From positions 1-64,000 of the forward strand of contig CAUJHH010000037.1 in assembly GCA_963204725.1 (NCBI GenBank): DNA of 64,000 nucleotides. The letters run 5' to 3'. The translations under genes were made by a program, and so were the position numbers. Position 1 is the first letter of the stretch, and each line of letters opens with the position of its first letter. The stretch is from Planctomycetota bacterium (GTDB lineage: Bacteria; Planctomycetota; Phycisphaerae; Phycisphaerales; UBA1924). Below, piece after piece: positions 1 to 64,000 of the stretch. A model generated the notes under the pieces. It made no database searches, had not been told where the DNA came from, and worked only from the letters and a program-made list of their open reading frames with translations.

Positions 1-109
1 TGAGGTCACAGCAACCATGCAGCGACGATACAGGGCGATCGGCGCGATGCAAGGGGTGTGCGCGGAGTGGGGTGATTTGGGCGCACAAACAGGCCCACTC
101 TCGGCGAAG

Positions 110-133
110 TCACTGACATACGTCTGTCAGTGA
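110..133. repeat. Perfect hairpin TCACTGACA / TGTCAGTGA
   Basis: Nine-base arms, perfectly complementary, flank the six-base loop TACGTC. No T-run follows on either strand, so it is not a typical intrinsic terminator. It could be a stem-loop at the end of a transcript from outside the window, or a protein-binding palindrome. Confidence 0.6.
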
Positions 134-4400: not shown

Positions 4401-6078
4401 CTCAAACAGCTTCCTCATCAGATCGCTGCTGCAGGATGGCTTTCTGTCACAGGCCGACGTCGAGCGAGCGGCGGAGCTTGCGAGGTCGTCGGGCAAGGAT
4501 CTCGCCGAGACGATCGTGTCCATGGGGGTGCTTTCCTCGCGGGTGTTGGCGATCGCACGGGCGAAGATCACCGAGTATCCGTTTGTTGATCTGGCGGCGT
4601 ATTCGGTGGACATCACGAACGCGACGATGCTGCCGCGCGGGATTGCGGAGCGGCACGGCGCGTTCCCTCTGTTTGTGCTGGATGGCCTCGCGACCGTGGC
4701 GATGCTCGATCCCTTGAATCTGCAGGCGCTGGACCAGGTGCGCAACGCGATGGCGTGCGACATCGATCCGGTGATCTGCGATCCGGAGCCGTTGCATGGC
4801 CTGATCGCGCGGGCGTATTCGATGTCCTCTGCGATGCAGGAGGCCGATGCGGCACCGGCCGCGGAGGCGGAGTTGACGACGGGCGAGGAGCCGATCGTTG
4901 CGGCGGTGAATCAGATTCTGGCCTCCGCGATGGAGGCGGGATCCTCGGATATTCACATTGGGCCGGACGAGCACGACCTGCATCTTCGGTATCGGGTGGA
5001 CGGCGTGCTTCTGGAGCAGCAGGGCCCTGCAAGGGCTGCGCATCAGGGAATCGTGCAGCGTCTCAAGGTGATGGCGAAGCTGGATCTGACGCAGGCGCGG
5101 AAGCCGCAGGATGGCAAGTTTCGGTTCACGCATCGCGGGCAGTATGTGGACGTGCGGCTGTCGCTTGTGCCGACGATCCATGGCGAGAACGTGGTGATGC
5201 GTCTGCTGCGATCGGCGTCGGCGATCGGGCCGATCTCTTCGCTCGGGATGGCTCCGGATGTGGAGCAGCCGTACGAAGAGTTCGTGCGCCGTCCGCACGG
5301 GATGATCCTGGTGACGGGGCCGACCGGCTCGGGCAAGACGACCACGCTGTACACCGCGCTCAACGCGATCAACACATCGGATCGGAACATCCTCACGATC
5401 GAGGATCCGGTTGAGATTCGGTTGCCTCTGGTGCGCCAGGTGCAGGTGAATCCGGAGGTGGGGCTGACGTTCGCGTCGGCGCTGCGTTCGTTCCTTCGCC
5501 AGGATCCGGACGTGATTCTGGTGGGCGAGATCCGCGACGCGGAGACGGCACGGATCGCGGTGCAGGCCTCGCTGACGGGGCACCTGGTATTCTCGACGCT
5601 CCATACGAACGACGCTGTCGGCGCGATTCCGCGTCTGCGCGACTTCGAGCTTCCGCTGTTCGCGATCAACGCGGCGTTGCTGTGCACGATTGCGCAGCGG
5701 CTGGTTCGGCGTGCGTGCGAGCAGTGCGCCGTGCCGGAGCGTGCCGGAACAGCACCTCCGGGTGGTCTTGGGCTGTCGGTCGATGACATGCCGGGCTTCG
5801 TGTGTGGCACGGGGTGCGCGTCGTGCAGGAGCACGGGGTATCGCGGTCGGCTGGGTGTGTATGAGATGCTGCGGATGACGCCGCGCGTGCAGCAACTGGT
5901 GGAGACCATGGCGACGGCTGCGGAGATCCGGGCGGCGGCGGAGTCTGAGGGGATGCGACCGATGTGGCGGGACGGCCTTGAGAAGGCGCGTCGTCGGCTC
6001 ACGACGGTGTGGGAGCTCGGGAAGCTTCGTCCCATCTTCGAAGAAGAGAAGCGTGCTTCGCTCAGGAGCGCCGCATGA
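4393..6078 (+). CDS. gspE: GspE/PilB-family assembly ATPase
   Basis: Cytoplasmic ATPase that powers pseudopilus or pilus assembly. The 561-residue protein has an N-terminal MshEN/GspE-N-like domain, then Walker A GPTGSGKTTTLYTAL, the Asp and His boxes around ILVGEIRDAETA and SLTGHLVFSTLHTND, and a tetracysteine zinc site (CEQC...CASC) followed by GYRGRLGVYEML, as in classical GspE/PilB. I chose the ATG at 4393, which overlaps the PilZ stop and follows GGGGGAG. The next gene overlaps by ATGA. The family cannot be split between type II secretion and type IV pili from this gene alone. Confidence 0.93.
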   Translation: MLDSNSFLIRSLLQDGFLSQADVERAAELARSSGKDLAETIVSMGVLSSRVLAIARAKITEYPFVDLAAYSVDITNATMLPRGIAERHGAFPLFVLDGLATVAMLDPLNLQALDQVRNAMACDIDPVICDPEPLHGLIARAYSMSSAMQEADAAPAAEAELTTGEEPIVAAVNQILASAMEAGSSDIHIGPDEHDLHLRYRVDGVLLEQQGPARAAHQGIVQRLKVMAKLDLTQARKPQDGKFRFTHRGQYVDVRLSLVPTIHGENVVMRLLRSASAIGPISSLGMAPDVEQPYEEFVRRPHGMILVTGPTGSGKTTTLYTALNAINTSDRNILTIEDPVEIRLPLVRQVQVNPEVGLTFASALRSFLRQDPDVILVGEIRDAETARIAVQASLTGHLVFSTLHTNDAVGAIPRLRDFELPLFAINAALLCTIAQRLVRRACEQCAVPERAGTAPPGGLGLSVDDMPGFVCGTGCASCRSTGYRGRLGVYEMLRMTPRVQQLVETMATAAEIRAAAESEGMRPMWRDGLEKARRRLTTVWELGKLRPIFEEEKRASLRSAA

Positions 6079-24891: not shown

Positions 24892-25830
24892 GTGAGGAAG
24901 TTGCGCGGGTCAGATCGGCAGGCTCATCGGATCGGCGGGGTGGCACGGAGAGTCCGCATGGGAATTGCACTCGGCGCTGTTGCGATGGTTGGCGTAGCGC
25001 TCCTTCTCCCAAACATGGTCGGCTGCATGGTCCCCGGACCCGCCGCAACACAGGAGCAGATCGGCGCACTCCGGCGGCAGACGACCGATTCGATCGAACA
25101 CCCTGTCTCATACCTTGTGGCGGGTGATCCCGCGCGACCGCGAGTCATCTATGTGCATGGCACTCCGGGTGATGCTGGTGCGTGGGCTGATTTCCTCGTT
25201 GATCCAGTTGTGGGACCAGCCGCGAGCCTCGCGGGGCTCGAAGGCGAGCGGGCAGAGCCGCTCGAATCGATCGCGATCGACCGACCCGGCTTTGGAATGT
25301 CCGAGAAACGGGCCACGGTATCGTTCGAAGAACAGGCCATGGCGATCGCACCCCTGCTGGTCGAGCGGGATGGCGAGTGGCCGATCCTTGTCGGGCACTC
25401 GCTGGGCGGCCCGATCGTCGCACGGGTCGCGGCGGATCATCCTGACCGCGTTCGTGCGCTCGTCATCGTTGGCGGCTCGCTCGATCCGGTGCTGGAGAGG
25501 CCCGGCCTCATGCAGCGCATCGCCCAGGGAGGAGTCGTGCGGGCCTTTCTGCCTCGCGCGCTGGACAACTCGCTCCAGGAACTCAAGGTTTCCAAGCGGG
25601 AGACGCTGGCGCTCGCCGAGCAGCTCGGTCACGTCCGCTGCCCGGTGATCATCATCCACGGCACAAAGGATTCTCTGGTCCCCTATGCCAATGTGGAGTA
25701 CATGGAGCGGATGCTCGCGAACGCGCCGCTGGTTGAGGTCGTCACCCTCGAGAACCAGGGGCACTTCGTGCCGTGGGAACATCCCGATGTCATCCGCGCC
25801 GCGATTGAGCGTCTCGCGGCGATGCCCTGA
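24892..25830 (+). CDS. Membrane-anchored alpha/beta hydrolase
   Basis: A 312-residue protein with an N-terminal hydrophobic anchor (IALGAVAMVGVALLLPNMVGC), whose Cys might make it a lipoprotein. The hydrolase domain has HGTPGDAGAW (oxyanion region), the nucleophile elbow GHSLGG, the Asp in GTKDSLVPYANVEYM and the His in NQGHFVPWE. The GTG at 24892 has GGAGGAG 5 bases upstream. Substrate unknown: esterase or lipase-like. It lies about 300 bp downstream of the phosphatase gene and converges on the sulfotransferase gene one base beyond its stop. Confidence 0.85.
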   Translation: MRKLRGSDRQAHRIGGVARRVRMGIALGAVAMVGVALLLPNMVGCMVPGPAATQEQIGALRRQTTDSIEHPVSYLVAGDPARPRVIYVHGTPGDAGAWADFLVDPVVGPAASLAGLEGERAEPLESIAIDRPGFGMSEKRATVSFEEQAMAIAPLLVERDGEWPILVGHSLGGPIVARVAADHPDRVRALVIVGGSLDPVLERPGLMQRIAQGGVVRAFLPRALDNSLQELKVSKRETLALAEQLGHVRCPVIIIHGTKDSLVPYANVEYMERMLANAPLVEVVTLENQGHFVPWEHPDVIRAAIERLAAMP

Positions 25831-25831
25831 A

Positions 25832-26809
25832 TCACGCGCTCGTCGCTCGCCCTTCAAAGCCGAATCGCTCCTGCAACGCGTTGAATCGCGCCGCCATCCC
25901 CGGCGGCAGCGCGAGCGCGGGGCCCTTGTTGCGACGCTCGGACTGGATGGGCGCGATGGCGCGCTCGAGCCATTCGGGCTCGCAAGAGATGCCGAGGTGC
26001 TGGCAGACATCGGCGACGATGTCGCGGGGACGCGACGTGAGGTCGGGGTACCGGATCTCGATCATGCGCGAACCGAGGCGATCCCGCCAGACGTCGGCCT
26101 CTCCGATGCTGCAGAGCCACTCGTACGCGCCACGCTGCGCGTCGCTCGTGAGTGCACCGATCTCTTGGGGAAAGTAACCGTGTGCCGCGCCGTCGCGTGC
26201 GAGCGACTTCCACTTGCACCGACCTCTCCCCCACCACTGGTTGTAATCGGGCTTGCCTGCGATACGGTACGTGCCCGTCGTGGCGAGACGGTCAATCGAT
26301 CGGGCGATGTCCACGCCGTCACGCACGATGTGGACATATTTCGTACGCGACGGATCCGGCACGAGCGCTTCGATGAAGCCGATGCGGCAGACGTTGTGCG
26401 GCGTCTTCTCGACCAGCAGCCTTCGTCTCGCGTTCGACACGGGCGCGAGCATCGTGCGCACAAACCTCGTGCGCGCATCGGCCGTTGCGAGAGATGCGTC
26501 CATGAAGAACTGGCCGTCGGACTTCACATGGAAGTTGGTGACATCACTCCGGGGCTCGATCGCGGCCCACGCGTGGTACGGCTCGAAGAGGTACCGCACC
26601 TCGGGGTGATGCTCAAAGAGCCGCCCGAGCAGTGTGGTGCCCGAGCGCCCGCTGCCCATCAGGAACGCCGACCCCGGCTGATCCGCATGGCTCTCCCCGG
26701 GCGCCGGCGTTCTTGCCGCTCGCAGGGCCTGACGTCGCAGCCGCTCGTAGCGGATCGCACGCAGATAGGGAAGCAGTGCCTGAACGGGCGCAGAGCGCTT
26801 GATGGACAT
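25832..26809 (-). CDS. Sulfotransferase family protein
   Basis: Transfers sulfate from PAPS, probably to a sugar of a surface polysaccharide. The 325-residue protein has the 5'-phosphosulfate loop GSGRSGTTLLGRLFEHHP and the 3'-phosphate motif VHIVRDGVDIARS, the two PAPS-binding signatures. The cluster of glycosyltransferases and acyltransferases upstream supports a polysaccharide role. It lies 31 bp downstream of the GT2 gene on the same strand and is probably co-transcribed. The acceptor is unknown. Confidence 0.88.
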   Translation of the reverse strand: MSIKRSAPVQALLPYLRAIRYERLRRQALRAARTPAPGESHADQPGSAFLMGSGRSGTTLLGRLFEHHPEVRYLFEPYHAWAAIEPRSDVTNFHVKSDGQFFMDASLATADARTRFVRTMLAPVSNARRRLLVEKTPHNVCRIGFIEALVPDPSRTKYVHIVRDGVDIARSIDRLATTGTYRIAGKPDYNQWWGRGRCKWKSLARDGAAHGYFPQEIGALTSDAQRGAYEWLCSIGEADVWRDRLGSRMIEIRYPDLTSRPRDIVADVCQHLGISCEPEWLERAIAPIQSERRNKGPALALPPGMAARFNALQERFGFEGRATSA

Positions 26810-55573: not shown

Positions 55574-58500
55574 ATGTCCGACAACATGAGCCATTCCGAG
55601 CGAGTCCGTTCCATCTTCGATCAGGTCGTTGACCTTCCGCCGACCGAGCGTGCTGCTGCGCTCGGTCGGCTTTGCATGACCAACAACCAGCCCGACGCCG
55701 CCCTCCGCGCCGAGGTCGAGGCCCTCCTTGCGTCGCTCGATGCCGCGCACCAGGCCGGGTTCATGTCCAGCCCGACCGCCGCGACCACCATCCGCAACGC
55801 CGCCATCACCGAAACCCCGGGCACGCGCATCGGCCCCTACAAGCTGCTGCAGGTCATCGGCGAGGGCGGCTTCGGCACCGTCTTCCTCGCGGAACAGTCC
55901 GAGCCGGTCCGCCGGCGCGTCGCCCTCAAGATCATCAAGCTCGGCATGGACACCAAGCAGGTGATCGCCCGCTTCGAGGCCGAGCGACAGGCCCTCGCCC
56001 TCATGGACCACCCGCACATCGCCCGCGTCCTGGATGCCGGCGCAACCCCCATCACCGAGCACGGTGGCGGCCGCCCGTACTTCGTCATGGAGTACGTCGT
56101 CGGCGACGCCATCACGCAGTTCGCCGCGAACAACAACCTCGACATCCGTGCCCGGCTCGAACTCTTCGCCCAGGTCTGCTCCGCCGTCCAGCACGCCCAC
56201 ACCAAGGGCATCATCCACCGCGACATCAAGCCCGGCAACGTCCTCGTCACCATGACCGACGGCAAGCCCTTCGCCCGCGTCATCGACTTCGGCATCGCCA
56301 AGGCCACCGCATCCGCCGGCGGCCTCACCGACAAGACCCTCTTCACCGAGCACCGCCAACTCATCGGCACGCCCGAGTACATGAGCCCCGAACAGGCCCA
56401 GGGCTCACCCGACATCGACACCCGCACGGATGTCTACGCCCTCGGCGTCCTCCTCTATGAACTCCTCGCTGGCGACACGCCCTTTGATGGCAAGCGCCTG
56501 CGCTCCGCAGCGTGGGACGAGATGCGCCGAATCATCAAAGAGGAAGACCCGCCCACACCGAGCGCCCGCGTCACGCAACGCATGAAGTCCGGCGGCTCTG
56601 CATCCTCTCCCTCTGCCCCTTTGACCCTTCGTCCCTCTGCCCCTTCCGACCTCCGCGGCGAACTCGACTGGATCGTCATGAAGTCCCTCGACAAGGACCG
56701 CGCCCGCCGCTACGAAACCCCGAGTGCCCTCGCCGCCGATGTCGAACGCCACCTGAAGGGCGAGGCCGTGCAAGCCGCGCCACCCTCCGCGGCATACCGG
56801 CTGCGCAAGTTCGTCCGCCGCAACAAGGGACCCGTCATCGCCGGCTCGGCCGTGGCTGCCGCGCTGCTCGTAGGAATCGCGGGGACGACGTGGGGGATGT
56901 GGCGCGCCGAGCAGGCAACAGAGACTGTGCGTCGAGGCGCGGTTGCGGATGCCAACGCCATGCTGGATGCGCTCAAGGTTCTCACGCCCAATGGAAACGT
57001 GGTCCTGGAAAGAGACCGAATCTCGTGGACGAATGCGGATGGCACGCCTGGCTTCCTGATACTCAACACAGAGGGCGATTGGGAGCAAGGGATCACGACG
57101 ATCCGTCCCGGCGCCTGGCTCGCATCCCGAGTGGCCACCCTCGCAGAGGATCTCAGGATCGAGACGAAGAATCTCGAGGACGCAAACTCCGTGCTCGCTC
57201 ACCAGATTAGCACCGCGAAGGAGGCACTGCGAAACATCATCATCGAGACCGCGGAGCTTGATTCCGAAGAGCGCAACGCGGTCATGCAGTCGGAGAGTGT
57301 CTCAGAAGAAGAAGCCAGGAAGTTGCAGGCCGACGCGTACGCAGAGGGCATCCGCGAAGCCCGGCAGTTCTTGGCGAACGAAAGGGGAGAAGCAGTCGGC
57401 GATCAGTCGGAGATCGACATCCTCGCATTGGTGTCGTGGTGGAAGGCCAGAGAGTTGAAGGAGAGCCGCGAGCATCTCCGCCAACAAACCGACGCCGCCG
57501 AATGGTCCGCCTACACCGCCAACCTCGCGCTCGCCCAGGCCGCCCTCCAGAGCGGCAACCGACTCGAAGCCGCCCTCCGCCTCGAACAATGCCCCGAATC
57601 CAGGCGTGGCTGGGAATGGAACGTCCTCCGAGCGAGCGCGGACACAAGCGCCTACACCTACCAGGCGCACGGGCCTCTCGCCTTCCTTGATGGCGGTGAT
57701 CGCTTCCTCACCCGTTCTCTGAATAACGGCCTCGAGTTCCGCGAAACATCGTCTGGCCGATTGATCAAGACGATCGTCGGTTCGTTCGGCGTCAACGATG
57801 TTCAGGTCTCGCCCGATGGAGAGCACCTCCTTCTCGCGGGCGTCGACCGCACGCGGAACGAGTACGCCGCGGCGATCTGCGACGTCGACGGCGGCTCAGT
57901 CTTTCAGACAGCGGAGCACGACGAATCGCCGCTCACCAGCTTCGTCGCGAATGGAGCCGCCTTCATCACCGTCGAACGATTCTTCAGAGAGAACTCGCGC
58001 CTGCGCGTATGGGACACCAAGACCGGAGACATGCTTGCCTCGCTCGAACAGGCATGGCCCGGCTACCAATGGGGCGCAGCCAGCCCGCACAGCCCCCATG
58101 TGGTCATGTGCACCAACGAGTTTGTCGAGCTACGAGACATCATCCGCAACACGCGAACGGCGATCCTGAAGGGGCTGAACCCCGCGGATCTCATCGCCGT
58201 TGAGTTCTCGCCAGATGGAAAGACCATTCTCACGGTCTCACGCGCGACCGGAGTAGAGCTCTGGTCCGGCGAGTCCGGCGATCACGTCGCAACAATCGCT
58301 CTTGAGTCCATCAATCCCGAAGAGGTCGACTGCGTCTCATTCGCATCCAACGGCTCAAGAGCCGTCATCAGCGCGTACGGGGACGTCGCCGAAGTGATCG
58401 ACATCGAATCGGGCGCCCATCTCTCCACCGTGCTCTGCCAGCCGCACGACGTGTCATTCATCTCGCGCCTCACGCCCGACGGCTCTGGTCTTCTGACCAC

Positions 58501-59986
58501 CGGGGGCCCCACGCCCCGCCTGTGGGACGCGTCAACTGGCCGTTTCATCACCGAGTTTGCCGGGCACGTCCGCGATGCCCGTTTCATCTCCTGCACCCCG
58601 GACGGGTCGGTCGTGATCGCCGCCGCATACGACGGCGTTTCAAGAGCGTGGCCAATCTCCACCACGCCCAGCCCGCTCGTCCTCAGGGTGCCGCAAGACG
58701 CCGGCGATTCCGCGCGTCGCGGCGAGTTCGATCCAACCGTCCTGACAGCGCCAACCTGCCTCGCCGCGGTGCCCATCGGCGAGGGCGACGACCGCGTGGA
58801 ATGGCGCGGACCAGGCGGCGAAGCCCCCGTTGGCACCGAACGCGACGGATGCACATCGGTCGCGTTCTCGAAAGACGGATCTCGCCTGTTCTATACGGCA
58901 CACGCGAGCATCTTCGAGCGGAACCTCAATGATGCCTCCGACTCGCGAGAACACTGCCATCTCGATCTCTACGGGAATTACGTCTACATGGGTCCGAAGC
59001 TCATCGGTCCGGACGACACCGGCGCGTTCTGGTCTTGGCGCCAGAGCGTTCAGCAGTGGAGGCCGGGCCATGACAAAGAGTCATGGCGCATCACACTCCC
59101 ATCAATCGCTGCATACGACCGCAAGGCGCAGACCGAAGAGTCCATTCGGCATCTTTCCTTCGCAGACGTGAGTGCCGACGGCTCGCGCCTGCTCACTGTC
59201 TTCGACCACGGAGCTCGATGGCCCAAGGCAACGCCGGGGCGCGCTACGAGCATGCCAGGGGCGACAATCTGGGTCAGCGATGCCCGGACGGGCGAACGCA
59301 TCTTCGAGCGAGAAATCATGTGCGAGGCCTACTACGCCTCGGCCGCAGGAATCAACGCAGACGGCACGCTCCTCGCCTACATGGAACAATCCGGCGATCG
59401 AGACATCAGCCGAATGCTCAACATCGCCACCGGCGAGACACACTCACTCATCACGGAAGACCGCTGGAAGATTCGGCGCCACACATTCTCCCCGGATGGC
59501 TCCCGTCTTGTCGCCGTCGGCGACTACGGCGCGTCGCTCTGGAACACCCAGACCGGAGCGAAGCTGGCATCATTCACACAGCGTCGCTTCGAAGCCCATA
59601 ACTCCCACGTCTCGTTCAACAGCGATGCCTCGCGAGCGGTTGTGGTGATGGGAGGCACGGCCATCCTCATCGACACCGCGAGCGGCGAGGAGATCGCCGA
59701 GCTCCTCGGCCACACCAACACGATCACGAGCGCGGCGTTCTCCCCCGACGACTCTCGCATCGCGACAGCCAGCTACGACCAGTCACTGAGAATCTGGGAT
59801 GGCGCGACAGGCCGCCCCCTCACCGTTTACACAGAACAGGCACCCACTGGCGGCGCGGATGGAGAAGGCTTCCCGCCAGCGGGGTTCAACTGCCTAGCAT
59901 TCAGCCCCGACGGGCGACGCCTCGCCGTCGGAGCCGTCGATGGGCGGGTGCTCGTCTTCGACTCGGCTCAGGACGGCGCAAAGTGA
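55574..59986 (+). CDS. Ser/Thr kinase with WD40-like repeats
   Basis: A 1470-residue protein. Kinase domain, residues about 88-395: GEGGFG loop (96-101), VALK Lys119, HRDIKPGN (Asp217), DFG (238-240), GTPEYMSPEQ. A single membrane helix follows at about 420-440, then a coiled-coil and, from about residue 690, WD40-like repeats with motifs such as VEFSPDGKTILTVSRATGVE, AAFSPDDSRIATASYDQSL and RIWDGATGRPL. Residues 337-358 (GSASSPSAPLTLRPSAPS) are a low-complexity insert within the kinase domain between the C-lobe helices. It follows the ECF sigma gene directly. Confidence 0.93.
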   Translation: MSDNMSHSERVRSIFDQVVDLPPTERAAALGRLCMTNNQPDAALRAEVEALLASLDAAHQAGFMSSPTAATTIRNAAITETPGTRIGPYKLLQVIGEGGFGTVFLAEQSEPVRRRVALKIIKLGMDTKQVIARFEAERQALALMDHPHIARVLDAGATPITEHGGGRPYFVMEYVVGDAITQFAANNNLDIRARLELFAQVCSAVQHAHTKGIIHRDIKPGNVLVTMTDGKPFARVIDFGIAKATASAGGLTDKTLFTEHRQLIGTPEYMSPEQAQGSPDIDTRTDVYALGVLLYELLAGDTPFDGKRLRSAAWDEMRRIIKEEDPPTPSARVTQRMKSGGSASSPSAPLTLRPSAPSDLRGELDWIVMKSLDKDRARRYETPSALAADVERHLKGEAVQAAPPSAAYRLRKFVRRNKGPVIAGSAVAAALLVGIAGTTWGMWRAEQATETVRRGAVADANAMLDALKVLTPNGNVVLERDRISWTNADGTPGFLILNTEGDWEQGITTIRPGAWLASRVATLAEDLRIETKNLEDANSVLAHQISTAKEALRNIIIETAELDSEERNAVMQSESVSEEEARKLQADAYAEGIREARQFLANERGEAVGDQSEIDILALVSWWKARELKESREHLRQQTDAAEWSAYTANLALAQAALQSGNRLEAALRLEQCPESRRGWEWNVLRASADTSAYTYQAHGPLAFLDGGDRFLTRSLNNGLEFRETSSGRLIKTIVGSFGVNDVQVSPDGEHLLLAGVDRTRNEYAAAICDVDGGSVFQTAEHDESPLTSFVANGAAFITVERFFRENSRLRVWDTKTGDMLASLEQAWPGYQWGAASPHSPHVVMCTNEFVELRDIIRNTRTAILKGLNPADLIAVEFSPDGKTILTVSRATGVELWSGESGDHVATIALESINPEEVDCVSFASNGSRAVISAYGDVAEVIDIESGAHLSTVLCQPHDVSFISRLTPDGSGLLTTGGPTPRLWDASTGRFITEFAGHVRDARFISCTPDGSVVIAAAYDGVSRAWPISTTPSPLVLRVPQDAGDSARRGEFDPTVLTAPTCLAAVPIGEGDDRVEWRGPGGEAPVGTERDGCTSVAFSKDGSRLFYTAHASIFERNLNDASDSREHCHLDLYGNYVYMGPKLIGPDDTGAFWSWRQSVQQWRPGHDKESWRITLPSIAAYDRKAQTEESIRHLSFADVSADGSRLLTVFDHGARWPKATPGRATSMPGATIWVSDARTGERIFEREIMCEAYYASAAGINADGTLLAYMEQSGDRDISRMLNIATGETHSLITEDRWKIRRHTFSPDGSRLVAVGDYGASLWNTQTGAKLASFTQRRFEAHNSHVSFNSDASRAVVVMGGTAILIDTASGEEIAELLGHTNTITSAAFSPDDSRIATASYDQSLRIWDGATGRPLTVYTEQAPTGGADGEGFPPAGFNCLAFSPDGRRLAVGAVDGRVLVFDSAQDGAK
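56609..56645 (+). repeat. 13-bp direct repeat in the kinase gene
   Basis: CCCTCTGCCCCTT is repeated at 56609-56621 and 56633-56645. It encodes the low-complexity insert of the kinase domain. The reverse complement, AAGGGGCAGAGGG, resembles the purine-rich text of the non-coding region near 200-260. Confidence 0.7.
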
Positions 59987-62551: not shown

Positions 62552-63502
62552 TCAGTCGCGGTGTGACTTGTGACAATCCTTGCAGTCCTGCGTGAGGGCC
62601 TTGAAGGCCTCGCTTGCTTTCGCCTTGTCGATCGCGGCACCTTCGAGGATTGATTCGAGGACCCTGGCTTCCGCGGCGGCCTTGTCCATCAGCTTCGGCA
62701 GTTCGGCGTGGCGGGTCTTGACAGTGTCGAGCTCGGCGAGGGCGCGGTAGATATCGACCAGGCGGGCGGCTTCGGCGACGGGCACAAGGTCGGGATGGTC
62801 TGCGGGCACGGTCCACGCGGCCTTCTCGATGAGTTTCAGGTTGTCAGTGCGCTCGTCGATCTCGACCATCGCGGTGACCAGATCGCCGACGGGCGCGACC
62901 TCGGGGAAGTCGGCGGGCGCGCCTTCCAGCTCCTGCAACTCGGCCACAGTCGCCTCACGCGCGCACTGCCAGAGCCCGGTGTACGAGGGCGCGGTCTGTG
63001 CGACGGACATAAAGGCGAGGGCCTGCTCGGTGTTGATCCGTCCGAGCGCGATCGCGGCGGTGGCGGCGGCGGTCGGGCCGCGGTGCTTGCCGTGGTGGCA
63101 GTGCACATAGACAGGCCCCGGGAGGTCGCGGATGGCGCGGGCGATGGCGAGGGTCTGTTCGCGGGTGACGCCGTCGTAGCCGATGGGGATGTGGACGTAG
63201 CGCAGGCCGCCCGCGTGCGCCAGTTCGATCTCGGGGCGTGCGCCGTCGACCGAGATGATGGTCTTCACACCGAGCGACTTGAGTTCATCGAAGTCGTGCG
63301 TCTCGACGGGCGAGGGGCCGGAGTAGATGCCGGGCGCAGCGAAGAGAACGGGGACATGGTGGACTTCTGCGGCGGCTTTGGTGCCGGGCTGGGTTTCGAT
63401 CTGGGTTTCGATCTGGGGTTGGCGTGCGAGAGCGAGCATGGAGCCCGCGACAATCGCGAGGCAGAGGAGCCGGGCGGCGGCGTGCGGCGTGCGAGGCTTC
63501 AT
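62552..63502 (-). CDS. Exported phosphatase-like protein with C-terminal haem motif
   Basis: A 316-residue protein with a signal peptide (ARLLCLAIVAGSMLALA). Residues 55-165 resemble dual-specificity phosphatases: APGIYSGPSPVETHDFDELK, SLGVKTIISVDGARPE and the active-site loop HCHHGKHRG (Cys135, Arg141, CX5R). The C-terminal part is helical and ends with CKDCHKSHRD, a CXXCH haem c site at residues 307-311, as in c'-type cytochromes. Both halves are in one frame. Export fits haem attachment outside the cytoplasm. Whether the phosphatase is active there is unknown. Confidence 0.8.
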   Translation of the reverse strand: MKPRTPHAAARLLCLAIVAGSMLALARQPQIETQIETQPGTKAAAEVHHVPVLFAAPGIYSGPSPVETHDFDELKSLGVKTIISVDGARPEIELAHAGGLRYVHIPIGYDGVTREQTLAIARAIRDLPGPVYVHCHHGKHRGPTAAATAAIALGRINTEQALAFMSVAQTAPSYTGLWQCAREATVAELQELEGAPADFPEVAPVGDLVTAMVEIDERTDNLKLIEKAAWTVPADHPDLVPVAEAARLVDIYRALAELDTVKTRHAELPKLMDKAAAEARVLESILEGAAIDKAKASEAFKALTQDCKDCHKSHRD

Positions 63503-63555: not shown

Positions 63556-64000
63556 TCAGCCGATCTGCGAGAGGACCAGGAGGAGCAGCGTCATGATCGT
63601 GCCGTTGTGCAGGGCGTGTGCGGTGATCGGCGCGATCAGCGAGCCGCGCCACTCGCGCATCAGGGCGAAGTTGAAGCCCAGTGTGATCACCGGGAGCATG
63701 AGCGCGGGCGAGTAGGGATGGATGAGGCCGAAGAAGAGCGCGGAGACGGCGGCGGAGAGGAGGAGGCCCCGGCGCGAGCGGAGGTGGCGGAAGAGCGAGC
63801 CACGGAAGATAGTCTCTTCGGTGAAGGGTGCCCAGATGGCGGCGAGGGCGAAGAGGAGGAAGGGCGTGATCCCTCCGGAGGTTGCGACGTCGAGGATGGG
63901 GTTGTTCGGGGGTGTGGGCGTGCGTCCCGCGGCGTGCTCGATGGCGGACTGGATGATGATGACGAGCATGGTGAGCGCGAACGCGGCGAAGAGGAGGGGG
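63556..64000 (-). CDS. CPBP-family intramembrane protease, C-terminal part
   Basis: The gene runs off the window end. The visible 148 or so residues contain the CPBP motifs: FTEETIFRGSLFRHL (Glu-Glu pair and Arg), FFGLIHPYSP (His) and ITLGFNFALMREWRGSL, ITAHALHN. It is a membrane glutamic-type protease of the Rce1/CAAX family. The N-terminal helices and start lie outside. Substrate unknown. Confidence 0.88.
   Translation of the reverse strand, partial: PLLFAAFALTMLVIIIQSAIEHAAGRTPTPPNNPILDVATSGGITPFLLFALAAIWAPFTEETIFRGSLFRHLRSRRGLLLSAAVSALFFGLIHPYSPALMLPVITLGFNFALMREWRGSLIAPITAHALHNGTIMTLLLLVLSQIG

Follow-up and report, generated by a model that had tools for sequence, protein, structure and literature searches.

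Results

A single gene joins a phosphatase fold to a class II cytochrome

In the window (the whole 64,000-nucleotide stretch of planctomycete DNA that was analysed), an open reading frame on the minus strand was translated without an internal stop into a protein of 316 amino acids. The earlier note had placed a CX5R loop (Cys135 and Arg141), a CKDCH haem site and a signal peptide in this one protein, and translation, Pfam searches and conservation confirmed the observation. The features of the locus are listed below, each with the evidence on which it rests.

62552..63502, minus strand: gene for an exported PTP-fold/class II cytochrome fusion, 316 aa (ORF translation and homologues)
63422..63502, minus strand: signal peptide, about residues 1-27, with n-region KPR and h-region LLCLAIVAGSMLALA (sequence reading)
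62921..63376, minus strand: PTP/DSP-fold domain, residues 43-194 (Pfam, AlphaFold2 model, structure matches)
63245..63247, minus strand: Asp86, which swaps jointly with residue 140 (comparison with R86/D140 relatives)
63080..63103, minus strand: P-loop HCHHGKHR, residues 134-141, with nucleophile C135, H140 and R141 (conservation)
62555..62896, minus strand: class II cytochrome (four-helix) domain, residues 203-316 (profile and structure matches)
62867..62869, minus strand: Met212, predicted distal axial haem ligand (present in 179/179; b562 structural register; split cytochromes)
62786..62815, minus strand: family motif WxxPxxHPDL, residues 230-239, in the helix A-B loop (conservation)
62570..62584, minus strand: haem attachment site CKDCH, residues 307-311 (178/179 homologues)

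An AlphaFold2 model of the whole protein, built on 54 sequences, had a mean pLDDT of 90.5 and a pTM of 0.81, and residues 195-316 modelled alone reached 93.4 and 0.83. Residues 1-40 were of low pLDDT, alongside the signal peptide reading, and a crude pattern found a lipobox-like Cys upstream in 107 of 178 homologues. The C-terminal end of the protein reads CKDCHKSHRD. The anatomy of the protein and its family are secure.

The fusion is conserved across the planctomycetes

The homologue search returned 218 matches, which were reduced to 197 distinct and then to 179 near-full sequences; the 18 left out were 13 PTP-only relatives (L200-L212), the weak matches L028-L030, L026, which holds the cytochrome half only in a frame without a P-loop, and L214, in which both motifs are present with many gaps. 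Both the P-loop and the CXXCH motif were found in 178 of the 179 near-full homologues, and the one exception, L022, is truncated where its contig ends. The earlier reading of a phosphatase fold with a c-type haem would have been undone by loss of conservation at either site; C135 and R141 were each present in 179/179 and C307, C310 and H311 in 178/179, and the domain searches and structure matches described below also support that reading. One member (L199) was divergent at the loop (T134, T137, D140) and kept the Cys, the Arg and the CXXCH. These sequences were selected for their resemblance to the fused profile, a choice biased towards fused members; in an independent search with the cytochrome domain only, an HCX5R motif lay in the same frame in 30/30 fetched loci (L221-L250) among the strong matches, and the weaker matches of that search were mostly short frames of about 160-260 aa.

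At E<=1e-5 the profile matched 200 of 392 sampled Planctomycetota genomes, PTP-only relatives counted in, and most of the listed matches stronger than 1e-45 spanned the two-domain profile from near its start to its end. Among close relatives 32 of 61 genomes matched, the last few weakly and in the PTP half only, and of three other congeneric genomes two had no match. This patchy occurrence, even within a genus, indicates that the gene is not essential to the lineage. The titles of the best 80 of 504 relatives kept from a contig scan named planctomycetes, uncultured bacteria and two apparently mis-binned MAG labels; the latter are Chitinophaga pinensis and Limnohabitans contigs (L060 and L108) that carry the gene at 45-46% identity and look like planctomycete DNA. 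A plasmid search returned two records, both planctomycete, namely complete plasmids (NZ_CP011274.1 and NZ_CP042998.1) of Planctomyces sp. SH-PL62 and Aquisphaera giovannonii, the Aquisphaera product being WP_148599161.1, and a phage search gave no match to the family. On the SH-PL62 plasmid, genes for cytochrome c oxidase and for a DUF3365 protein lie close by.

That the gene is an artefact of a frame error, a chimeric assembly or chance motifs is barely conceivable: it is conserved over its full length across the phylum and is annotated on two complete plasmids of named strains, and the conservation of both motifs in 178 of 179 homologues excludes chance. Nothing at the window itself points to an artefact, and one relative, L202, at a contig end, does look chimeric.

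Existing annotations elsewhere read 'dual specificity protein phosphatase' or 'hypothetical protein', neither Pfam nor NCBIfam has a dedicated name for the family, and literature searches at the level of titles and abstract openings found no account of a phosphatase-cytochrome fusion. The earlier note knew of no common family with this domain order; among planctomycetes the order is not rare, the family being phylum-wide. Matches to Glyco_trans_4_4 in 33 of 54 members were judged spurious.

The phosphatase domain lacks a conserved general acid

Pfam placed Tc-R-P (PF22785) above its cut-off in the window protein (1.2e-6, 29.4 against 27 bits), with PTP-SAK just below (24.7 against 27) and PF03162 further below (14.0 against 27 bits). 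Both Tc-R-P and PTP-SAK are bacterial DSP-like families, and neither model has a cytochrome. Structural matches of the PTP half included VHZ (Z 16.3), the periplasmic tyrosine phosphatase TpbA of Pseudomonas aeruginosa (4r0s, Z 15.9) and Siw14 (Z 14.8), along with SsoPTP and PFA-DSP1 (Z about 14-16), and the family profile also found TpbA among its best solved structures (1.6e-7; 2m3v, aligned over the same residues, 2.7e-8). A PTP fold with an HCX5R loop places the domain in the Cys-based PTP superfamily.

Conservation around the loop was near complete among the near-full homologues: H134 and H140 were each found in 178/179, H137 in 176/179, D86 in 177/179, and Y174 and L177 each in 178/179, while position 139 was K in 142/179 and R in 24/179. 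The P-loop Arg of such enzymes is often followed by Ser or Thr; here that position was S in 89, G in 87 (as in the window protein) and A in 3 of 179, so that the Ser/Thr of canonical PTPs and DSPs is not a rule of this family. A conserved WPD-type general-acid Asp about 25 residues before the Cys was not found in the 179 near-full homologues. TpbA, which is exported and uses Asp D105 as general acid, shares the HCX5R loop and the fold with the family but differs in its P-loop (CKHGNNR), in its general-acid Asp and in having no cytochrome; position 110, aligned to D105, was D in 87, N in 43 and S in 18 of 179.

A P-loop ending in GKHR, the mark of the PFA-DSP/Siw14 group, was found in the family. 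The inositol pyrophosphate phosphatases PFA-DSP1 and Siw14 resemble it in this loop and in having no WPD acid; they differ in being eukaryotic, in having no haem, in placing the His partner, Asp191, elsewhere and in matching only weakly in Pfam. In PMC9038691, AtPFA-DSP1 (CKRGKHR) is described as working without a general acid; the His after the P-loop Lys is catalytic, and this residue, His155, is put forward as the base, with 95-98% of activity lost when it is mutated.

Residues 86 and 140 were D and H in 177 of 179 fused members (the exceptions being N/H and E/D), and the three split PTPs described below likewise combined an acidic residue (D or E) at 86 with H140, whereas relatives with a DRTG-type loop had R86 and D140 in 10/10. 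The coordinated swap suggests that the two residues interact, which would place D86 and H140 in contact, and H140, with D86 tuning it, could play a part analogous to that of His155 in AtPFA-DSP1. The metal-dependent phosphatase that the earlier note had considered found no support besides the His-rich P-loop, and a metal site there was set aside: most DRTG-type relatives have H137 as well, and position 136 is F rather than H in 20/179.

The cytochrome domain is predicted to hold a six-coordinate haem

Cytochrom_C_2 (PF01322) matched residues 264-315 of the window protein below its cut-off (1.4e-4, 23.2 against 26.5 bits) and was matched at E<=0.1 in 50 of 54 family members. Against solved chains, a profile of the C-terminal region found cytochrome c' (7e-6) and c-556 (0.012). 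Foldseek alone gave no match below 0.001 for the cytochrome domain, its best being a flagellar chaperone (0.077), so the class II assignment rests on the CXXCH, the profile matches and a second-look structural alignment. That alignment returned b562/cb562, Kusta0087/Kusta0088 and cytochrome c' at Z 12-13, a modest score for a helical bundle. A four-helix bundle with a C-terminal CXXCH, the definition of a class II cytochrome c, was thus found. The domain is like cytochromes c', c-556 and b562 in its bundle and its C-terminal CXXCHxx[YFH]R, and unlike them in being fused to a phosphatase, in its sub-cut-off PF01322 match and in its conserved WxxPxxHPDL loop, in which W230 was present in 167, P237 in 166 and D238 in 170 of 179.

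Met212 was invariant (179/179 near-full homologues). Residues 12..121 of the domain model match 1..106 of b562 (256b, Z 12.4), which puts Met212 on Met7 and His311 on His102 if the alignment is ungapped near both ends; Met7 and His102 are the haem ligands of b562. In the planctomycete cytochrome pair Kusta0087/Kusta0088 of Kuenenia (6r6m), which is among the top structural matches (Z 13.0), domain residues 12..122 fall on 26..129 and the range ends put Met212 on C32. That pair, whose C32 is named in the PDB entry titles, differs in being a cytochrome heterodimer without a phosphatase and in having a Cys rather than a Met as haem ligand. Met212, C307, C310 and H311 are common to the three split cytochromes too. 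A low-spin His/Met haem is therefore predicted, because Met212 is in register with the b562 ligand, invariant and present in the split cytochromes, and the haem is probably ligated by His311 and Met212 and would serve redox chemistry rather than gas sensing. Cytochromes c' are nearest by sequence profile, and a five-coordinate haem of that type could bind NO, CO or another gas and thereby switch the phosphatase; an invariant distal Met, such as six-coordinate haems of the b562 type have, argues against this, which is considered very unlikely. The genome encodes a cytochrome c assembly protein (PF01578, 1.2e-31), and a search of it for a separate ResB gene gave no match.

Split genes keep the phosphatase and the cytochrome together

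Ten of the 13 fetched PTP-only relatives carried an HCxxGxDRTG loop and three (L200, L201 and L202) a GxHR loop. In all three GxHR cases, which come from three lineages, a cytochrome gene lay directly downstream on the same strand, and the C-terminal part of its product scored as a class II cytochrome (E 2.4e-5, 2.7e-5 and 5.4e-4 by profile); Pfam named two of the three, both below cut-off (5.7e-5 and 0.0012), and left the third unnamed. In one locus (L251) the PTP gene closes with its stop at 5566 and the cytochrome probably begins with an ATG at 5650; in the second (L252) a non-ATG start would make the genes overlap by a few bases; in the third (L253) about 58 bases separate them. A cytochrome neighbour was found in 0 of 11 DRTG-type loci, three of which were shorter stretches than the others. 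These data indicate that the GxHR loop class and the cytochrome go together, fused or split, and in a tree built from the PTP domains of 40 fused and 13 solo proteins the two sets were separate (support 0.963). The L202 protein (locus L253, G200:C171) has two PTP-like repeats, the second without a loop, and a tRNA_bind-like start at the contig end; it is a possible chimera.

The linkage of phosphatase and cytochrome, as one protein or as adjacent genes, suggests that electron flow may be tied to extracytoplasmic dephosphorylation. The two domains might instead share no more than their place in the envelope, with the cytochrome serving something else and its haem without influence on the phosphatase. 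Direct evidence of coupling is absent and the cytochrome domain alone folds with high confidence, as such a reading would have it; near-absolute co-conservation of the two motifs and the adjacency of the split genes speak against it, and it is considered rather improbable. Inter-domain covariation (pairs 136-216, 88-216 and 136-233, at ranks 28, 44 and 50) was set aside as evidence: residue 136 is F in 20/179 and the signal may be clade-specific, and phylogeny may explain it equally.

Additional fusions and gene surroundings

In four members (L009, L010, L011 and L014, in G055, G043, G047 and G039), a glutathione peroxidase domain (PF00255, 9e-38 to 8e-41) precedes the PTP in frame, giving triple fusions of GPx, PTP and class II cytochrome. 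All four come from one genus (g37) and so probably reflect one event; the fusion fits a thiol or peroxide context. A single further member (L024, G058:C186) has concentrative nucleoside transporter domains (PF01773, PF07670 and PF07662) in frame before the PTP-cytochrome, and in one genome a second class II cytochrome (G223:C1:26840-27187) lies just downstream of the fused gene (25670-26482).

The PTP fold might have been reused for thiol or sulfur redox chemistry, in which Cys135 would form a sulfenyl, persulfide or thiosulfate adduct kept in place by the oxyanion loop, the haem would trade electrons with it and the protein would be an oxidoreductase. The GPx fusions, the predicted His/Met redox haem and the lack of a conserved general-acid Asp would all suit such an enzyme, as would the best NCBIfam match, the Blh domain of a sulfur transferase/dioxygenase (3.3e-6), which is far under its cut-off. 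Against it, the P-loop is of the phosphatase type (HCX2GKHR), the best structural matches are phosphatases or 'putative phosphatase' entries (DUF442, 3gxg/3gxh), and the Blh/DUF442/TIGR01244 models stayed under their cut-offs (19.6 against 85.85 for TIGR01244; 26.2 against 625). On balance this reading is unlikely, if one to be taken seriously.

Gene surroundings differ between loci and were rejected as evidence for a pathway. Neighbour clustering of 80 loci plus the window end, and of 20 loci of wider lineages, found no conserved partner or operon; the commonest clusters, one sequence of each being read, were histidine-kinase-like and ABC-ATPase-like, each in 8 loci, and one larger cluster proved to be a shadow frame on the opposite strand. 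In the window, an Rce1-like (CAAX protease type) membrane protein is encoded directly upstream (63556-63999, minus strand; PF02517, 5e-20), and a protein of 1470 aa (55574-59986, plus strand) looks by eye like a Ser/Thr kinase (HRDIKPGN) that continues into WD-type repeats.

Discussion

The reading preferred here as the most economical, at a probability of roughly 45%, is that the family comprises exported, often lipid-anchored cysteine phosphatases coupled to a c-type class II cytochrome with probable His311/Met212 ligation; the coupling, the substrate and the direction of the effect are what we infer. With the phosphate bound by the P-loop and Arg141, Cys135 would carry out the attack. Since the family does not conserve the usual general acid, an Asp, D86 and H140 are proposed as a pair that would activate water much like His155 in AtPFA-DSP1, a chemistry that would favour substrates whose leaving group is good. 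Electrons would pass between the haem and a redox partner in the periplasm, and either the redox state of the haem or a transfer of electrons to the thiol of the active site would set the phosphatase on or off. The redox-gated phosphatase raised in the earlier note gains from this work its link between phosphatase and redox functions, through the fusion, the adjacent split genes and the GPx fusions; the gating itself is a further step that we infer. More specifically, a six-coordinate haem might directly switch an acid-less (D86-H140) periplasmic phosphatase throughout the phylum, with GPx adding a peroxide input in one genus, a proposal that is tentative and somewhat doubtful.

Dephosphorylation and electron transfer are tasks that are normally kept apart, and the envelope biology of planctomycetes is poorly understood. 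If coupling is true, one protein or a split operon would link redox state directly to the removal of phosphate outside the cytoplasm, and a haem switch would write the respiratory redox state into the phosphorylation of an envelope molecule. The members on the complete plasmids of Planctomyces sp. SH-PL62 and Aquisphaera giovannonii make the idea testable, and the family offers a bacterial model for phosphatases without a classical general acid.
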